This document shows, piece by piece, positions 17,680 through 21,173 of a stretch of 64,000 nucleotides of DNA. Made by a program: the position numbers and the translations under genes. The DNA lies in the NCBI RefSeq assembly GCF_007679325.1, contig NZ_VEGI01000002.1, forward strand, positions 372,001 to 436,000, in the 5' to 3' direction. This DNA comes from Arthrobacter sp. U41 (GTDB lineage: Bacteria; Actinomycetota; Actinomycetes; Actinomycetales; Micrococcaceae). Each line of letters starts with the position of its first letter. Positions within the stretch are counted from its first letter, which is position 1. The notes under the pieces are model-generated. The model was not told the DNA's origin, made no database searches, and was given only the letters and a program-made list of their open reading frames with translations.

Positions 17680-17717
17680 CGGCGAACCATTATGCACGCC
17701 CGGTCGTTGTGCGGGAC

Positions 17718-18095
17718 ATGAAATGTCCCGTGGATTCAATTGACCTGATCATGAGCGAACGCAGTGGCGTCGAGATCGATTACTGCCCCCAGTGCCGCGG
17801 CGTCTGGCTGGACCGGGGGGAGCTGGACAAGATCCTGGACCGCGCTGCGGAGACCATGGGCCCGGGCGTCGCGGCGCCCCCGGCGCCGATGCCGCCGACG
17901 ACGCCCGGCCACATCCCGCCACCGCTCTACAACCTGGATCCGCGCAGGGATGACCGCCGCCCGGATGACCGCCGCTACGATGACCGACGGTACGACGAGC
18001 GCCGGGACCGCCCGCGCTACGACCAGCCGCGCTATGACGACCGCCGCCGTCCGAAGAAGAAGGAAGGCTGGCTCGGGGAACTGTTCGACTTCTAA
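17718..18095 (+). CDS. Zinc-ribbon (TFIIB-type) protein with Arg/Asp-rich repeats
   Basis: A 125-residue protein. Residues 1-40 resemble the bacterial zf-TFIIB group (MKCPVDSIDL, YCPQCRGVWLDRGELDKIL); three Cys of a metal site are evident, while the fourth position appears to be Asp (CPVD). A Pro-rich stretch is followed by degenerate DDRRYD/DERRDRPRYD repeats (about 70-110) and a basic RRPKKKEGWLGELFDF tail. Function unknown; the repeats suggest nucleic-acid or polyanion contact. ATG 17718 chosen over GTG 17709. An inverted repeat (cgggacat/atgtcccg) covers the start codon. Confidence 0.8.
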   Translation: MKCPVDSIDLIMSERSGVEIDYCPQCRGVWLDRGELDKILDRAAETMGPGVAAPPAPMPPTTPGHIPPPLYNLDPRRDDRRPDDRRYDDRRYDERRDRPRYDQPRYDDRRRPKKKEGWLGELFDF

Positions 18096-18137: not shown

Positions 18138-18710
18138 TCAGTCCTCGAGCAGGGCGATGAATTCCCGGGCCTGTTTGATGGAAATGTCCGAATGGCGGGT
18201 GAGGGTCTCGGCCGCCGCTTCGGTGTCCCCGCTTCTGGCGAGCGTGCGGATCCTGCCGTAGATCTCATCGTTGAGCATGTTGCTGCTGACCTCCCGCGTC
18301 ACATCGCCCTTGCTGGCGATCGCCCGGTAGCGGTACGCGAACCGCTGCGGCGCATCGTCGTCGTCCTCAGCGGGTGCCGGCTCGGCGGTCTCGGGCCGGA
18401 AGGGCTGCGGATGGGCCGCCAGGGCACCCACGGCGTCACGGGAGGCCCTCAAGCCGTCGCCCGTGGCCTCCAAGTACAGTTTGATGGCGGCCATGGCCTG
18501 CCCCTGGGCGATCAGGGCGTACAGGCGCCGGTGCTGTTCCTGATTGAGCTTCGCCGCAGAGGTCCGCGCAAGCTCCACTGGATCCTTGCCCGGCTGAGGG
18601 GCGGTTTCCGGCGGGGTCCGGGAGCCGCGGTGGCCGAGGGCGCGGGCGGCAACGAGGACGCCGGCACCGACGAGCACCAGAATAAGGAGGGGGACAAGCA
18701 GGGATTCCAT
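18138..18710 (-). CDS. Membrane-anchored protein with two bL12-C-terminal-like segments
   Basis: A 190-residue protein of unknown function. Residues 1-25 form one membrane helix (LLVPLLILVLVGAGVLVAARAL). The rest is soluble and contains a segment like the ribosomal L7/L12 C-terminal domain (QAMAAIKLYLEATGDGLRASRDAVGAL, about 76-102) and, near the end, a second similar helix pair (AAAETLTRHSDISIKQAREFIALL). An acidic EDDDDA linker lies between them. It is 4 bp downstream of a shorter paralogue, so the two form an operon. Not ribosomal: the N-terminal dimerisation domain of L12 is absent. Confidence 0.72.
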   Translation of the reverse strand: MESLLVPLLILVLVGAGVLVAARALGHRGSRTPPETAPQPGKDPVELARTSAAKLNQEQHRRLYALIAQGQAMAAIKLYLEATGDGLRASRDAVGALAAHPQPFRPETAEPAPAEDDDDAPQRFAYRYRAIASKGDVTREVSSNMLNDEIYGRIRTLARSGDTEAAAETLTRHSDISIKQAREFIALLED

Positions 18711-18714
18711 GAAG

Positions 18715-19131
18715 CTACAGCCGATCTACAAAATTCTTGGCGGTCAAAAGATCTGAATGGGTTGCCTGCCGCAGCAGTTTGATGGCCTGGAGCTTCTTGC
18801 CGTTCCGGGCCAGCGACTGGAGTTGCAGGGCAAGCTGGGGATTGAGCTGGCCTCCCGGCAGAACGGGGCCCTGGTAGCGCGCGTGGTCTGCCTGCTGTGA
18901 CTGCTGCTGTTCGTTCTGGCTGGGCCGGGTGACGGCATCCACGCGGGCGCGGGCGGCGGTGGCCGCCTGGACCTGGGCGGCGTAATGGGCCTGGGAACGG
19001 GCAGCCAGTTCGTGCTGGTAGCGTTCCGCATCGGACATGCCGAAGTCGCGCGGCCGGAGGGCCGTGGTAAATGCCCAAAGGACCGCCGCCAGGATAAGGG
19101 CAGGCAGTATGACCAGCAATACATCGCCCAT
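18715..19131 (-). CDS. Membrane-anchored protein with bL12-C-terminal-like segment
   Basis: A 138-residue protein. It has an N-terminal membrane helix (VLLVILPALILAAVLWAFTTAL), a Gln/Ala-rich predicted coiled coil (about 33-85) and a C-terminal segment NGKKLQAIKLLRQATHSDLLTAKNFVDRL. That segment mirrors the helix-turn-helix of ribosomal L7/L12 CTD (K..AIK..R.AT...L..AK..V). It is paralogous to the gene 4 bp downstream. It is transcribed divergently from dnaB across a 659-bp gap. Function unknown. Confidence 0.72.
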   Translation of the reverse strand: MGDVLLVILPALILAAVLWAFTTALRPRDFGMSDAERYQHELAARSQAHYAAQVQAATAARARVDAVTRPSQNEQQQSQQADHARYQGPVLPGGQLNPQLALQLQSLARNGKKLQAIKLLRQATHSDLLTAKNFVDRL

Positions 19132-19790
19132 GTGAAGAGCTTATGCCAGATCGCGGTTATCCACAGCACATTCTGCGATAGGCATGGATGTGGGCGGCCG
19201 GGCGCCGCGCTTCGCCGCCCGCACCACCCCTCGGCGGTATGGTCCATGAGGACCATCACTTAATGTGCATATTTCCGGTGAGGTGTGGCCTCATATGCCA
19301 CCCGCTATCCCCAGCCGCTTCACATGGTCTGTGGATGAGTGTTGCTGAAAATTCTTTTGTGTCCACACGATGAAAGCAGTGTTTCCGCAGGTCAGAGCCT
19401 GATTGCGGCTGCAAGAATCTTTCTATCCACAGCTGTTCACACAGGCTGTGCACAAGCAGGGGGCAGTAGTGCACAGCTTATCCACAGGGGTGGCGGCCAG
19501 TCGGGTTGGTGACAGCCGGATCGGGCGATACCGTTGCTGGATATCGACCTTGGATACCGAAATCCGGTGCCGGCTGCACGACTTGTTCCTTCTCAGCGGC
19601 CACTTTCAGGCCCGGACCCGGGCTGTGGAAAACCGGCAGCGCCGGAGGGCGGCAAAAGTGTCGGAGTCGGCTGATAGTACTTAACCGTCGGGCCCACACC
19701 GGCGTCGACGCTGCCGGGCACCAAGGCCCGGAGGACACCCGTCGCCGGCGCACGAATATTCGCCGCGGCACACAATGGAGGACGGCAGTT
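19132..19790. promoter_or_regulatory. 659-bp intergenic region upstream of dnaB with DnaA-box-like cluster
   Basis: No gene is evident here. On the plus strand, exact ttatccaca lies at 19157-19165 and 19478-19486. On the minus strand, ttgtgcaca is read at 19447-19455 and ttttccaca at 19624-19632, both fitting the TTWTNCACA-type consensus or its G variant. One-mismatch copies lie at 19330-19338 (minus), 19359-19367 and 19423-19431. The 19260-19440 part is clearly more AT-rich than its surroundings. It probably carries the promoters of dnaB and of the divergent membrane-protein pair. DnaA binding is inferred. Confidence 0.6.
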
Positions 19791-19793
19791 TTG
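19777..19793 (+). promoter_or_regulatory. Ribosome-binding site fixing a TTG start of dnaB
   Basis: GGAGG at 19777-19781 lies 9 nt before TTG 19791, giving MSVTHLDSVEG. The open frame extends about 285 bp further upstream but with no comparable site and no DnaB similarity, so TTG 19791 is chosen. Confidence 0.7.
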
Positions 19794-21173
19794 TCAGTTA
19801 CGCATCTGGACTCAGTCGAGGGCACCCGGGGAGCCGAGGGCAGCCGCAAGCCGCCGCAGGACATTCCCGCCGAACAGTCCGTCCTGGGCGGCATGATGCT
19901 GTCCAAGGACGCCATTGCCGACGTCGTCGAGATCCTAAGGGGCGTCGACTTCTACCGTCCTGCGCACGAGACGATCTACGAAGCCATCATCGACCTCTAT
20001 GGCCGCGGCGAACCTGCCGACGCCGTGACCGTGTCGGATGAACTGACCAAGCGGGGCGAGATCAACCGGGTTGGCGGCCCCGCCTACCTTCACGAGCTCA
20101 TCCAGACCGTTCCCACGGCCGCCAACGCCGGCTACTACGCCGAAATCGTGGGTGAACGGGCGGTGCTGCGCCGCCTTGTCAATGCCGGCACCAAGATCGT
20201 CCAGCTCGGCTACGGCCAGGACGGCGAGGTTGAAGACCTGGTCAACCAGGCCCAGGCGGAGATTTATGCCGTGGCGGAACGCCGCACCGCAGAGGACTAC
20301 GTCGTCCTCAAGGACGTGATGGAGTCCACCGTGGACGAGATCGAAGCGTCCGGCCACCGCGAGGAGGGAATGACGGGCGTTCCCACCGGCTTCTACGAAC
20401 TGGATGAGCTCACCCACGGCCTGCACCCCGGCCAGATGATCGTCATCGCAGCGCGCCCCGCCGTCGGTAAGTCCACCTTCGCCCTCGACTTCGCGCGCTC
20501 CGCGGCCATCAAGAACAACCTCGCCACCGTGATGTTCTCACTCGAAATGGGCCGGAACGAGATCGCGATGCGCCTGCTGTCCGCCGAGGCCACGATCGGC
20601 CTGCAGGACCTGCGCAAGGGCACCATCAAGGACGAGCAGTGGTCCAAGATCGCCACCACAATGGGCCGGATGAATGAGGCACCGCTCTTCATCGACGACA
20701 GCCCCAACATGTCCCTGATGGAAATCCGGGCCAAGTGCCGCCGCCTGAAGCAGCAGCATGACCTCAAGCTCGTCATCCTGGACTACCTCCAGCTGATGAG
20801 CTCCGGCAAGAAGGTGGAGTCCCGCCAGCAGGAAGTCTCCGAGTTCTCCCGAGCCCTGAAGCTTCTGGCCAAGGAACTGCAGGTCCCCGTCATTGCCCTG
20901 TCGCAGCTGAACCGTGGCTCCGAGCAGCGCCAGGACAAACGGCCCATGGTCTCGGACCTGCGTGAATCCGGTTCCATCGAGCAGGACGCCGACATGGTCA
21001 TCCTGCTCCACCGCGAGGACGTTTACGACAAGGAATCGCCGCGTGCCGGCGAGGCCGACATCCTGATCGCCAAGCACCGCAACGGTCCCACCAAGGACAT
21101 TGTGGTCGCCTTCCAGGGCCACTACTCGCGGTTCGCCAACATGGCAGCCGACGCCGGGGGCGGCGGCTTCTAG
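19791..21173 (+). CDS. dnaB: Replicative DNA helicase DnaB
   Basis: A 460-residue hexameric helicase. The N-terminal domain (PPQDIPAEQSVLGGMMLSKDAIADV...) is the primase-interacting part. The RecA-like motor has Walker A ARPAVGKST, a Walker B region VILDYLQLM, the switch segment FSRALKLLAKELQVPVIALSQLNR and the arginine-finger region SIEQDADMVILLHR. No intein interrupts it, although inteins are common in actinobacterial DnaB. It unwinds DNA at the fork. The last 4 bp overlap the convergent thioesterase gene. Confidence 0.98.
   Translation: MSVTHLDSVEGTRGAEGSRKPPQDIPAEQSVLGGMMLSKDAIADVVEILRGVDFYRPAHETIYEAIIDLYGRGEPADAVTVSDELTKRGEINRVGGPAYLHELIQTVPTAANAGYYAEIVGERAVLRRLVNAGTKIVQLGYGQDGEVEDLVNQAQAEIYAVAERRTAEDYVVLKDVMESTVDEIEASGHREEGMTGVPTGFYELDELTHGLHPGQMIVIAARPAVGKSTFALDFARSAAIKNNLATVMFSLEMGRNEIAMRLLSAEATIGLQDLRKGTIKDEQWSKIATTMGRMNEAPLFIDDSPNMSLMEIRAKCRRLKQQHDLKLVILDYLQLMSSGKKVESRQQEVSEFSRALKLLAKELQVPVIALSQLNRGSEQRQDKRPMVSDLRESGSIEQDADMVILLHREDVYDKESPRAGEADILIAKHRNGPTKDIVVAFQGHYSRFANMAADAGGGGF

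Follow-up and report, generated by a model that had tools for sequence, protein, structure and literature searches.

Predicted membrane-anchored protein pair of Arthrobacter with helical half-domains, related in sequence in one of them to helices 4-5 of ribosomal protein bL12

The closest described counterpart of the proteins reported here is the C-terminal domain (CTD) of ribosomal protein bL12 (PF00542, TIGR00855), with which they have in common the pattern KKIxxIKxxRxxTxxxLxxAKxxVd of helices 4-5. In excerpts of PMC6753160, these helices are described as a positively charged site for IF2, EF-Tu, EF-G, and RF3; a cryo-EM fit in excerpts of PMC3677378 presents them as the sole RF3-L12 interaction, and K65 and K70 of L12 are important for EF-Tu binding according to excerpts of PMC10602876. 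All hairpin positions are numbered here by E. coli bL12. Positions 66, 69, and 73 are presumably contact residues, and the L12 N-terminal dimerisation domain is taken here to bind the stalk base and to form a separate Pfam family. A second system to be considered is the N-terminal domain of EF-Ts (within TIGR00116), which we assume to be UBA-like and which shares the helix-turn-helix pattern xVKxLRexTGAGMMDxKkAL with the proteins described below. Wieden et al. reportedly proposed in 2001 an EF-Tu motif common to EF-Ts and L7/L12.

We analyzed a stretch of 64,000 nucleotides (hereafter, the window) from Arthrobacter sp. U41 (contig NZ_VEGI01000002.1, positions 372,001 to 436,000), containing two adjacent genes, named here P1 and P2 (Table 1). 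Their coordinates, sizes, and 4-bp spacing in the initial annotation agreed with the ORF list and the translations, and the gap measures 2-4 bp in 45 of 46 named loci. The pair is flanked by a zinc-finger-like gene (17709-18095, plus strand) and by dnaB (19506-21173, listed on the plus strand), and rpsR, rplI, and dnaB were recognized by eye from the translations in its neighborhood, as the initial annotation had reported when mentioning dnaB and ribosomal genes. The adjoining zinc-finger-like protein, also recognized by eye, is small, has a long DDRR-rich tail, and was matched in 29 of the 46 named loci.

Table 1. Coordinates of the features of the P1/P2 gene pair in the window.
Feature	Coordinates	Strand	Description
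P1 gene	18715..19131	-	138 aa; membrane helix, long helix, then C-terminal L12-type half-domain
P1 membrane helix, residues 3-24	19060..19125	-	hydropathy peak 2.69; AF2 helix 3-24
P1 long helix, residues 34-67	18931..19032	-	AF2, block pLDDT 57-60; precedes conserved PSQN motif
P1 three-helix unit, residues 98-138	18718..18840	-	AF2 helices 98-109, 113-124, 128-137
P1 hairpin, residues 112-138	18718..18798	-	matches bL12 helices 4-5 (PF00542, profiles, alignment)
Intergenic gap, P1 stop to P2 start	18711..18714	.	4 bp
P2 gene	18138..18710	-	190 aa; membrane helix followed by unit 1, an acidic linker, the conserved YRYRAI segment, and unit 2
P2 membrane helix, residues 5-26	18633..18698	-	hydropathy peak 2.9; AF2 helix
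P2 unit 1, residues 44-99	18414..18581	-	four helices; AF2 helices 44-53, 57-68, 72-83, 87-99
P2 linker, residues 100-119	18354..18413	-	acidic; pN/pS 0.50
P2 YRYRAI segment, residues 120-147	18270..18353	-	FxYRYRAIASKGDVTREVSSNMLN
P2 unit 2, residues 148-189	18144..18269	-	AF2 helices 148-159, 163-173, 178-189

The anatomy summarized in Table 1 is well supported, and the single N-terminal membrane helix proposed earlier for each protein was borne out by the hydropathy peaks. In 22 of 22 sequences, the C-side flank of the helix was more positive than the N-side flank, both for P1 (mean charges +0.2 vs. -1.0) and for P2 (+3.5 vs. -1.0), the positive-inside signal being weak in P1 and clear in P2. 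By the positive-inside rule, such a charge difference predicts that the remainder of P1 and P2 should be cytosolic, and the two are probably single-pass membrane proteins with their L12-like parts on the cytoplasmic side. Purifying selection acts on both genes (pN/pS of 0.26 for P1 and 0.28 for P2, 231 pairs each), and region 26-87 of P1 gave a value of 0.22.

The C-terminus of P1 was modelled by AF2 as an all-helical unit of about 41 residues (block pLDDT 64-72, no strands), whose last helix ends 1 residue before the end of the protein. Residues 110-137 matched positions 9-36 of 67 of PF00542 (Ribosomal_L12) with an E-value of 0.011 and 16.5 bits, below the Pfam cut-off of 25.9, and P2 had no PF00542 match in a Pfam scan to E 10; the initial annotation had suggested a search against this family. 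A profile made only of P1 sequences (29 distinct orthologue C-termini) found 31 of 31 bL12 sequences, one from this genome and 30 from the phylum sample, with a best E-value of 7.5e-5 and a median of 0.0066, the best non-bL12 or reversed frame being at 1.9. When compared to bL12 with hhalign, the same profile scored 23.5 with a probability of only 22.7; its 30 column-shuffled controls scored at most 5.6. Profile A1, whose 21 rows comprise P2 unit 1 and P1-type proteins from several genera, also found 31 of 31 bL12 (median E 1.1e-6, best decoy 0.14). Its 14 best matches among 177,635 PDB sequences were bL12 chains (E 7.2e-6 to 0.045), and bL12 accounted for 15 of the 21 sequences at E <= 1. Finally, 76 distinct half-units aligned with bL12 with an hhalign probability of 97.4 and a score of 52.8 (shuffled maximum 15.9).

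These comparisons of sequence indicate that the P1 hairpin is related to bL12 helices 4-5 by more than chance, and that the match comprises these two helices only and not the whole L12 CTD. Chance or convergence of the K..AIK..R..T pattern would be conceivable for a match of about 28 residues, with P1 alone lying under the Pfam cut-off and the P1-only hhalign probability being low, but it appears very improbable in view of the recovery of all bL12 sequences well ahead of the best decoy, the shuffled controls, the identity of the top PDB matches of A1, and the relatives that score above the Pfam cut-off. A low-complexity artefact was likewise disfavored by the reversed and shuffled controls.

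P1 and P2 are not bL12 proteins, as they lack the L12 N-terminal domain, predicted strands, and a full CTD. The L12 N-terminal family was not listed for either protein in a Pfam scan to E 10, and no strand of at least three residues was present in their AF2 models, which are of moderate confidence (overall pLDDT 63.9 and pTM 0.26 for P1, 72.0 and 0.37 for P2). P1 ends so soon after its last modelled helix that there is no room for the later L12 strands. In contrast to bL12, P1 and P2 have an extra helix before the hairpin and a membrane anchor, and copies of the unit stand in tandem. Neither protein is the rplL product of this genome, since PF00542 is matched over its full length, with 102.1 bits, on another contig (C11). 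The description "bL12-CTD-like" given in the initial annotation was thus too strong for the whole unit, whose predicted fold is unlike that of the L12 CTD, an outcome that the initial annotation had named as refuting; the resemblance is retained for helices 4-5 in P1.

Searches against known structures returned no close counterpart: the best phmmer E-values against PDB were 0.57 for P1 and 0.88 for P2, and the best Foldseek E-value with the P2 model was 1.7. The best VIA-align rows for P1 were three-helix stretches of eukaryotic ribosome chains, such as 8br8_Lj (Z 5.6, rmsd 1.4 over 40), presumably eL36, together with 5vid_G, which is a mini-protein binder (Z 5.6, rmsd 1.1 over 39), although the program warns that Z below about 13 for helical bundles may reflect a common arrangement only. 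No L12 domain was recognized among the Foldseek and VIA-align rows shown (for P1 in VIA-align, the best 50 at most), among which a partial hairpin match could escape. In PHROGs, P1 had weak matches only (best E 0.02) and P2 none. Residues 97-138 of P1 also matched positions 52-93 of the 97-position NCBIfam hypothetical protein family NF005269 (PRK06771) with an E-value of 2.4e-4 and 21.7 bits, below its curated cut-off of 90 bits; several actinobacterial relatives match this family better, and none of the 19 genomes with a match exceeded the cut-off. The fit of the P1 unit to unrelated three-helix chains would be expected if the unit were a small generic helical scaffold, its hairpin inherited or converged and now binding unrelated partners or its own copies, for example in a P1-P2 assembly at the membrane, with no link to translation.

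In P2, two helical units were modelled, in agreement with the two segments noticed earlier in the longer protein, and the second of them is degenerate. Unit 1 is confidently modelled (block pLDDT 81-96 for residues 41-100, with block means of 90-96 for residues 51-100) and has a pN/pS of 0.19. Both units align with the P1 unit by hhalign (unit 1, E 0.0014, probability 6.9; unit 2, E 1.5e-4, probability 24.7), and unit 1 aligns with unit 2 at E 0.028 and a probability of 0.9. P1 and P2, which had been called paralogues, plausibly are so given their common architecture and the alignment of their units, yet the hhalign probabilities are low. Searched alone, unit 1 found 6 of the 31 bL12 sequences (best E 0.042, best decoy 0.71) and unit 2 found 0 of 31 in the profile search. 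The L12 helix pattern originally attributed to both proteins therefore holds for P1 and its orthologues, where it persists with its basic positions, but not for the P2 units taken alone. Neither of these resembles bL12 convincingly in sequence and, because both align with the P1 unit, the connection of P2 to bL12 seems to run via P1-type relatives.

The strongest constraint of the regions measured in P1 and P2 was found between the two P2 units, in residues 120-147 (pN/pS 0.05, vs. 0.14-0.26 for the units). AF2 gave no confident structure for this YRYRAI segment, and its matches in Pfam and NCBIfam did not exceed chance level. Profile A4, built on the P2 C-terminus, matched 5 of 148 class genomes, namely two true orthologues and three weak matches that fall in the unit-2 part outside the segment, two of which are half-unit proteins of another family (E 0.006-0.007); in this class sample, the segment was found in its own genus only. 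P2 was detected in 174 of the 245 genomes of the family sample and P1 in 33 (single-sequence search, E <= 0.001), and the corresponding figures in the order sample were 9 and 5 of 149. Some genomes yielded P2 alone and others P1 alone, the latter being the case, for instance, in G170, G172, G173, and G194. The constraint on the segment and the wider occurrence of P2 could mean that the segment and unit 2 are the functional heart of the pair, as a family-specific module for another membrane process in which the L12-like units would serve only for spacing or dimerisation. However, a segment so rare in the class cannot explain the wider family, and P1 occurs where P2 was not detected, so that we regard this possibility as rather improbable.

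The basic residues of the factor-binding helices are kept in P1, which has K65, K70, R73, and K84 in common with bL12, and partly lost in P2. Among the named P1 orthologues with a residue at the position, R73 was found in 44 of 44, K84 in 43 of 44, and K or R in 44 of 44 at both 65 and 70, one row, apparently that of L113 with its truncated P1 frame, being gapped there. A further 25 P1-family rows, from the same genus and others, have R73 in 23 of the 23 with a residue, whereas position 70 is A in 6/23 and N in 1/23, and position 65 is neither K nor R in 4/23. A set of 79 unit rows (76 distinct) was collected with A1, and is thus biased to A1 and not to bL12; these rows are not independent, many coming from one genus and some from overlapping stretches. 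They are hydrophobic at position 66 in 60/79 and at 69 in 77/79, and basic at 70 in 66/79, at 73 in 67/79, at 84 in 67/78, at 81 in 46/79, and at 65 in only 41/79. At position 68, V is present in all but one of 30 bL12 (30 of the 31 passed the threshold), whereas all 79 unit rows have A; if 68 is a core position of the L12 hairpin, as we assume, this exchange would mean an altered core beneath a retained face.

P2 unit 1 has A at position 65 and Y, L, or F at position 73 in 31 of 31 rows, and the net charge of the hairpin is +4 in P1, +2 in the genome's own bL12, 0 in P2 unit 1, and -2 in P2 unit 2. Since P2 unit 1 is confidently modelled without K65 and R73, these basic residues are probably not required for the fold, and their fixation in P1 would then point to a function at the surface of this protein. 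The losses in P2 imply that, at most, P1 would be a good L12 mimic. The same losses are compatible with a generic helical scaffold, whereas the retention of the basic positions in the named P1 orthologues and in most of the 79 unit rows, at sites that P2 suggests are partly unneeded for folding, speaks against it.

The likeness to EF-Ts is weaker than that to bL12. In EF-Ts the third helix presumably comes after the hairpin, whereas in the P1-type unit the extra helix comes before. The half-unit family aligned with the EF-Ts N-domain with an hhalign probability of 64.7 and a score of 23.7 (shuffled maximum 18.3); with the P1-only profile, the probability fell to 7.1 and 2 of 21 EF-Ts frames were matched, at E 0.79 and 6.6, which is not significant. 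A1 matched, at E <= 10, all 21 EF-Ts frames recognized by pattern in 30 loci (best E 0.0041, best reversed frame 4.0) and 11 further non-reversed frames, and its PDB search also included EF-Ts at E 0.15. The direct comparison of bL12 with EF-Ts gave a probability of 27.1 and a score of 22.2, a figure without a shuffled control. In three genomes (G000 contig C28, G408, and G440), PF00542 matches under the cut-off fell on EF-Ts genes. The one on C28, the third PF00542 match of this genome, corresponds to the start of EF-Ts (G000:C28:81759-81830, E 0.233) and may be an independent though weak sign of a motif common to L12 and EF-Ts. Separately, a 129-aa frame of another genome (G422:C1:1808643-1808777) has a match to the EF-Ts N-domain alone (positions 3-47, E 6.5e-11), lies apart from the main EF-Ts matches of that genome, and is possibly an orphan domain.

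P1 and P2 belong to a wider actinobacterial set of proteins with one to three half-domains, often behind a membrane helix; among the titles and opening lines of abstracts listed in literature searches of open PMC papers, there was no description of such membrane proteins. With A1, 157 of 197 class genomes were matched at E <= 0.01. Judged by their position (17-44) and the length of their frames, many of the weaker matches resemble bL12, and the strongest ones with translations read are not bL12. For 38 class genomes the best A1 match was below 1e-6, and frames were read from about two thirds of these. Three units were found in L158-L163, L166, and L168, with a membrane helix confirmed in L158, L159, L162, and L163, and two units with a membrane helix in L164, L165, L171, L173, L175, and L179. 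A single unit follows a hydrophobic helix and a coil-like stretch in L149, L167, L177, and L184, and has no membrane helix in L150, L170, L178, and L185; L172 and L181, also devoid of a membrane helix, have one clear unit and a second at noise level. Six of the nine relatives scanned passed the PF00542 cut-off, with their best stretches within positions 8-38; the best relative reached 83.3 bits in three stretches, the best of which covers positions 9-38 of 67. Of 149 phylum genomes, 142 had a PF00542 match above the cut-off, and the above-cut-off matches listed include a small frame of 96 aa that spans positions 9-38 only and another of 98 aa limited to positions 10-37.

Half-units were also noticed outside this set of frames. 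A 94-aa protein encoded on a Streptomyces plasmid beside ParA/ParB genes (WP_329391534.1; L215:1839-2123, NZ_CP108357.1) is automatically annotated as ribosomal protein L7/L12, probably a misannotation. Proteins of this type share with P1 and P2 a hydrophobic N-terminus, a coil-like stretch (by eye), and a half-unit, but have one unit only, without the long middle region of P1 and without a P2-like gene among the four annotated neighbors. Stenotrophomonas phage Philippe gp012 (L214:2522-2743; MZ326861.1, 3104-3325), a 73-aa protein annotated as hypothetical, carries a single L12-type half-unit, with no membrane helix evident. A scan of viral_contigs with a three-unit relative found no relative.

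The conservation of the locus was analyzed with a P1 scan of genome contigs, which gave 46 named loci in Arthrobacter, Pseudarthrobacter, and related organisms. P1 and P2 matches were both present in 46 of 46, in a set that was seeded by P1 similarity and in which loci without P1 could not appear. P2 is broken into two frames in Arthrobacter sp. Hiyo4 (L103) and P1 is cut short (89 aa) in Arthrobacter sp. EPSL27 (L113), by sequencing error or real decay. The gene dnaB lies near the pair in 46 of 46 named loci and rplI in 42 of 46. Since all of them come from close relatives and were picked by their similarity to P1, their shared dnaB/rplI context reflects inherited order. Among 20 wider stretches from other genomes, dnaB and rplI surround the match in six (L195, L196, L199, L200, L201, and L203) and are missing in 14. 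Judged by eye from the 70 N-terminal residues of crudely called genes, two of these 14, from one genus (L186 and L188), are near efp and nusB, and one (L193) is near infC and rplT; in the 11 others, no translation gene was recognized nearby. L186 and L188 hold a second half-unit pair of another actinobacterial genus (L186:5143-7128, L188:4909-6946), one protein of which has three units, located between aroQ and pepQ-efp-nusB (names by eye).

The neighborhood survey proposed in the initial annotation thus showed a context that is conserved in close relatives and, with 14 of 20 wider stretches lacking both genes, constitutes weak evidence. A ribosomal role read from the gene neighborhood was rejected on these grounds. 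The 11 loci with no recognized translation gene, and the tandem copies common among the relatives examined at locus level, are in turn what a generic scaffold would predict. We consider such a non-translation scaffold to be a reading of about equal standing with GTPase binding, both being tentative.

The pair is real, conserved, and distinct from bL12, and a possible involvement in translation would be as follows. Our tentative proposal is that P1, and perhaps P2, is a cytosol-facing, membrane-tethered binder of translational GTPases. The predicted unit would be an all-helical one of about 41 residues, lacking the L12 beta-sheet and closed by the additional helix ahead of the hairpin. Its final two helices are in P1 relatives of bL12 helices 4-5 and, in the wider family, show a weaker relation to the beginning of EF-Ts. 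The initial annotation had pointed to the L12 CTD as the contact of translational GTPases, and the excerpts of PMC6753160 and PMC3677378 cited above place this site, for L12, in the two matched helices. Because P1 retains the basic residues of these helices, its hairpin would most likely dock the G domain of a translational GTPase at the membrane, with EF-Tu as the first candidate since both bL12 and EF-Ts bind EF-Tu. P2, made with P1, may join or position it as a partner or adaptor, and translation factors or translating ribosomes could in this way be held at the membrane. The loss of basic residues in P2 and the mixed neighborhoods of distant relatives argue against GTPase binding. A broader version of this proposal, which we consider somewhat unlikely, is that these proteins form a third, membrane-tethered class of the docking hairpin for EF-Tu or translational GTPases common to bL12 and EF-Ts, in which the two contact helices would have been taken out of the L12 fold, closed by a new helix, multiplied in tandem, and placed at the membrane, or in other relatives in soluble and phage proteins, gathering or sequestering translation factors.

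Automatic annotation labels at least one half-unit protein as ribosomal, which is misleading. Even without GTPase binding, our data indicate that the L12 helix 4-5 hairpin is an independent and repeatable half-domain. Should P1-type proteins indeed act as binders of translational GTPases, the ribosomal stalk would have a counterpart at the membrane, a simple module that would tie translation to the cell envelope.
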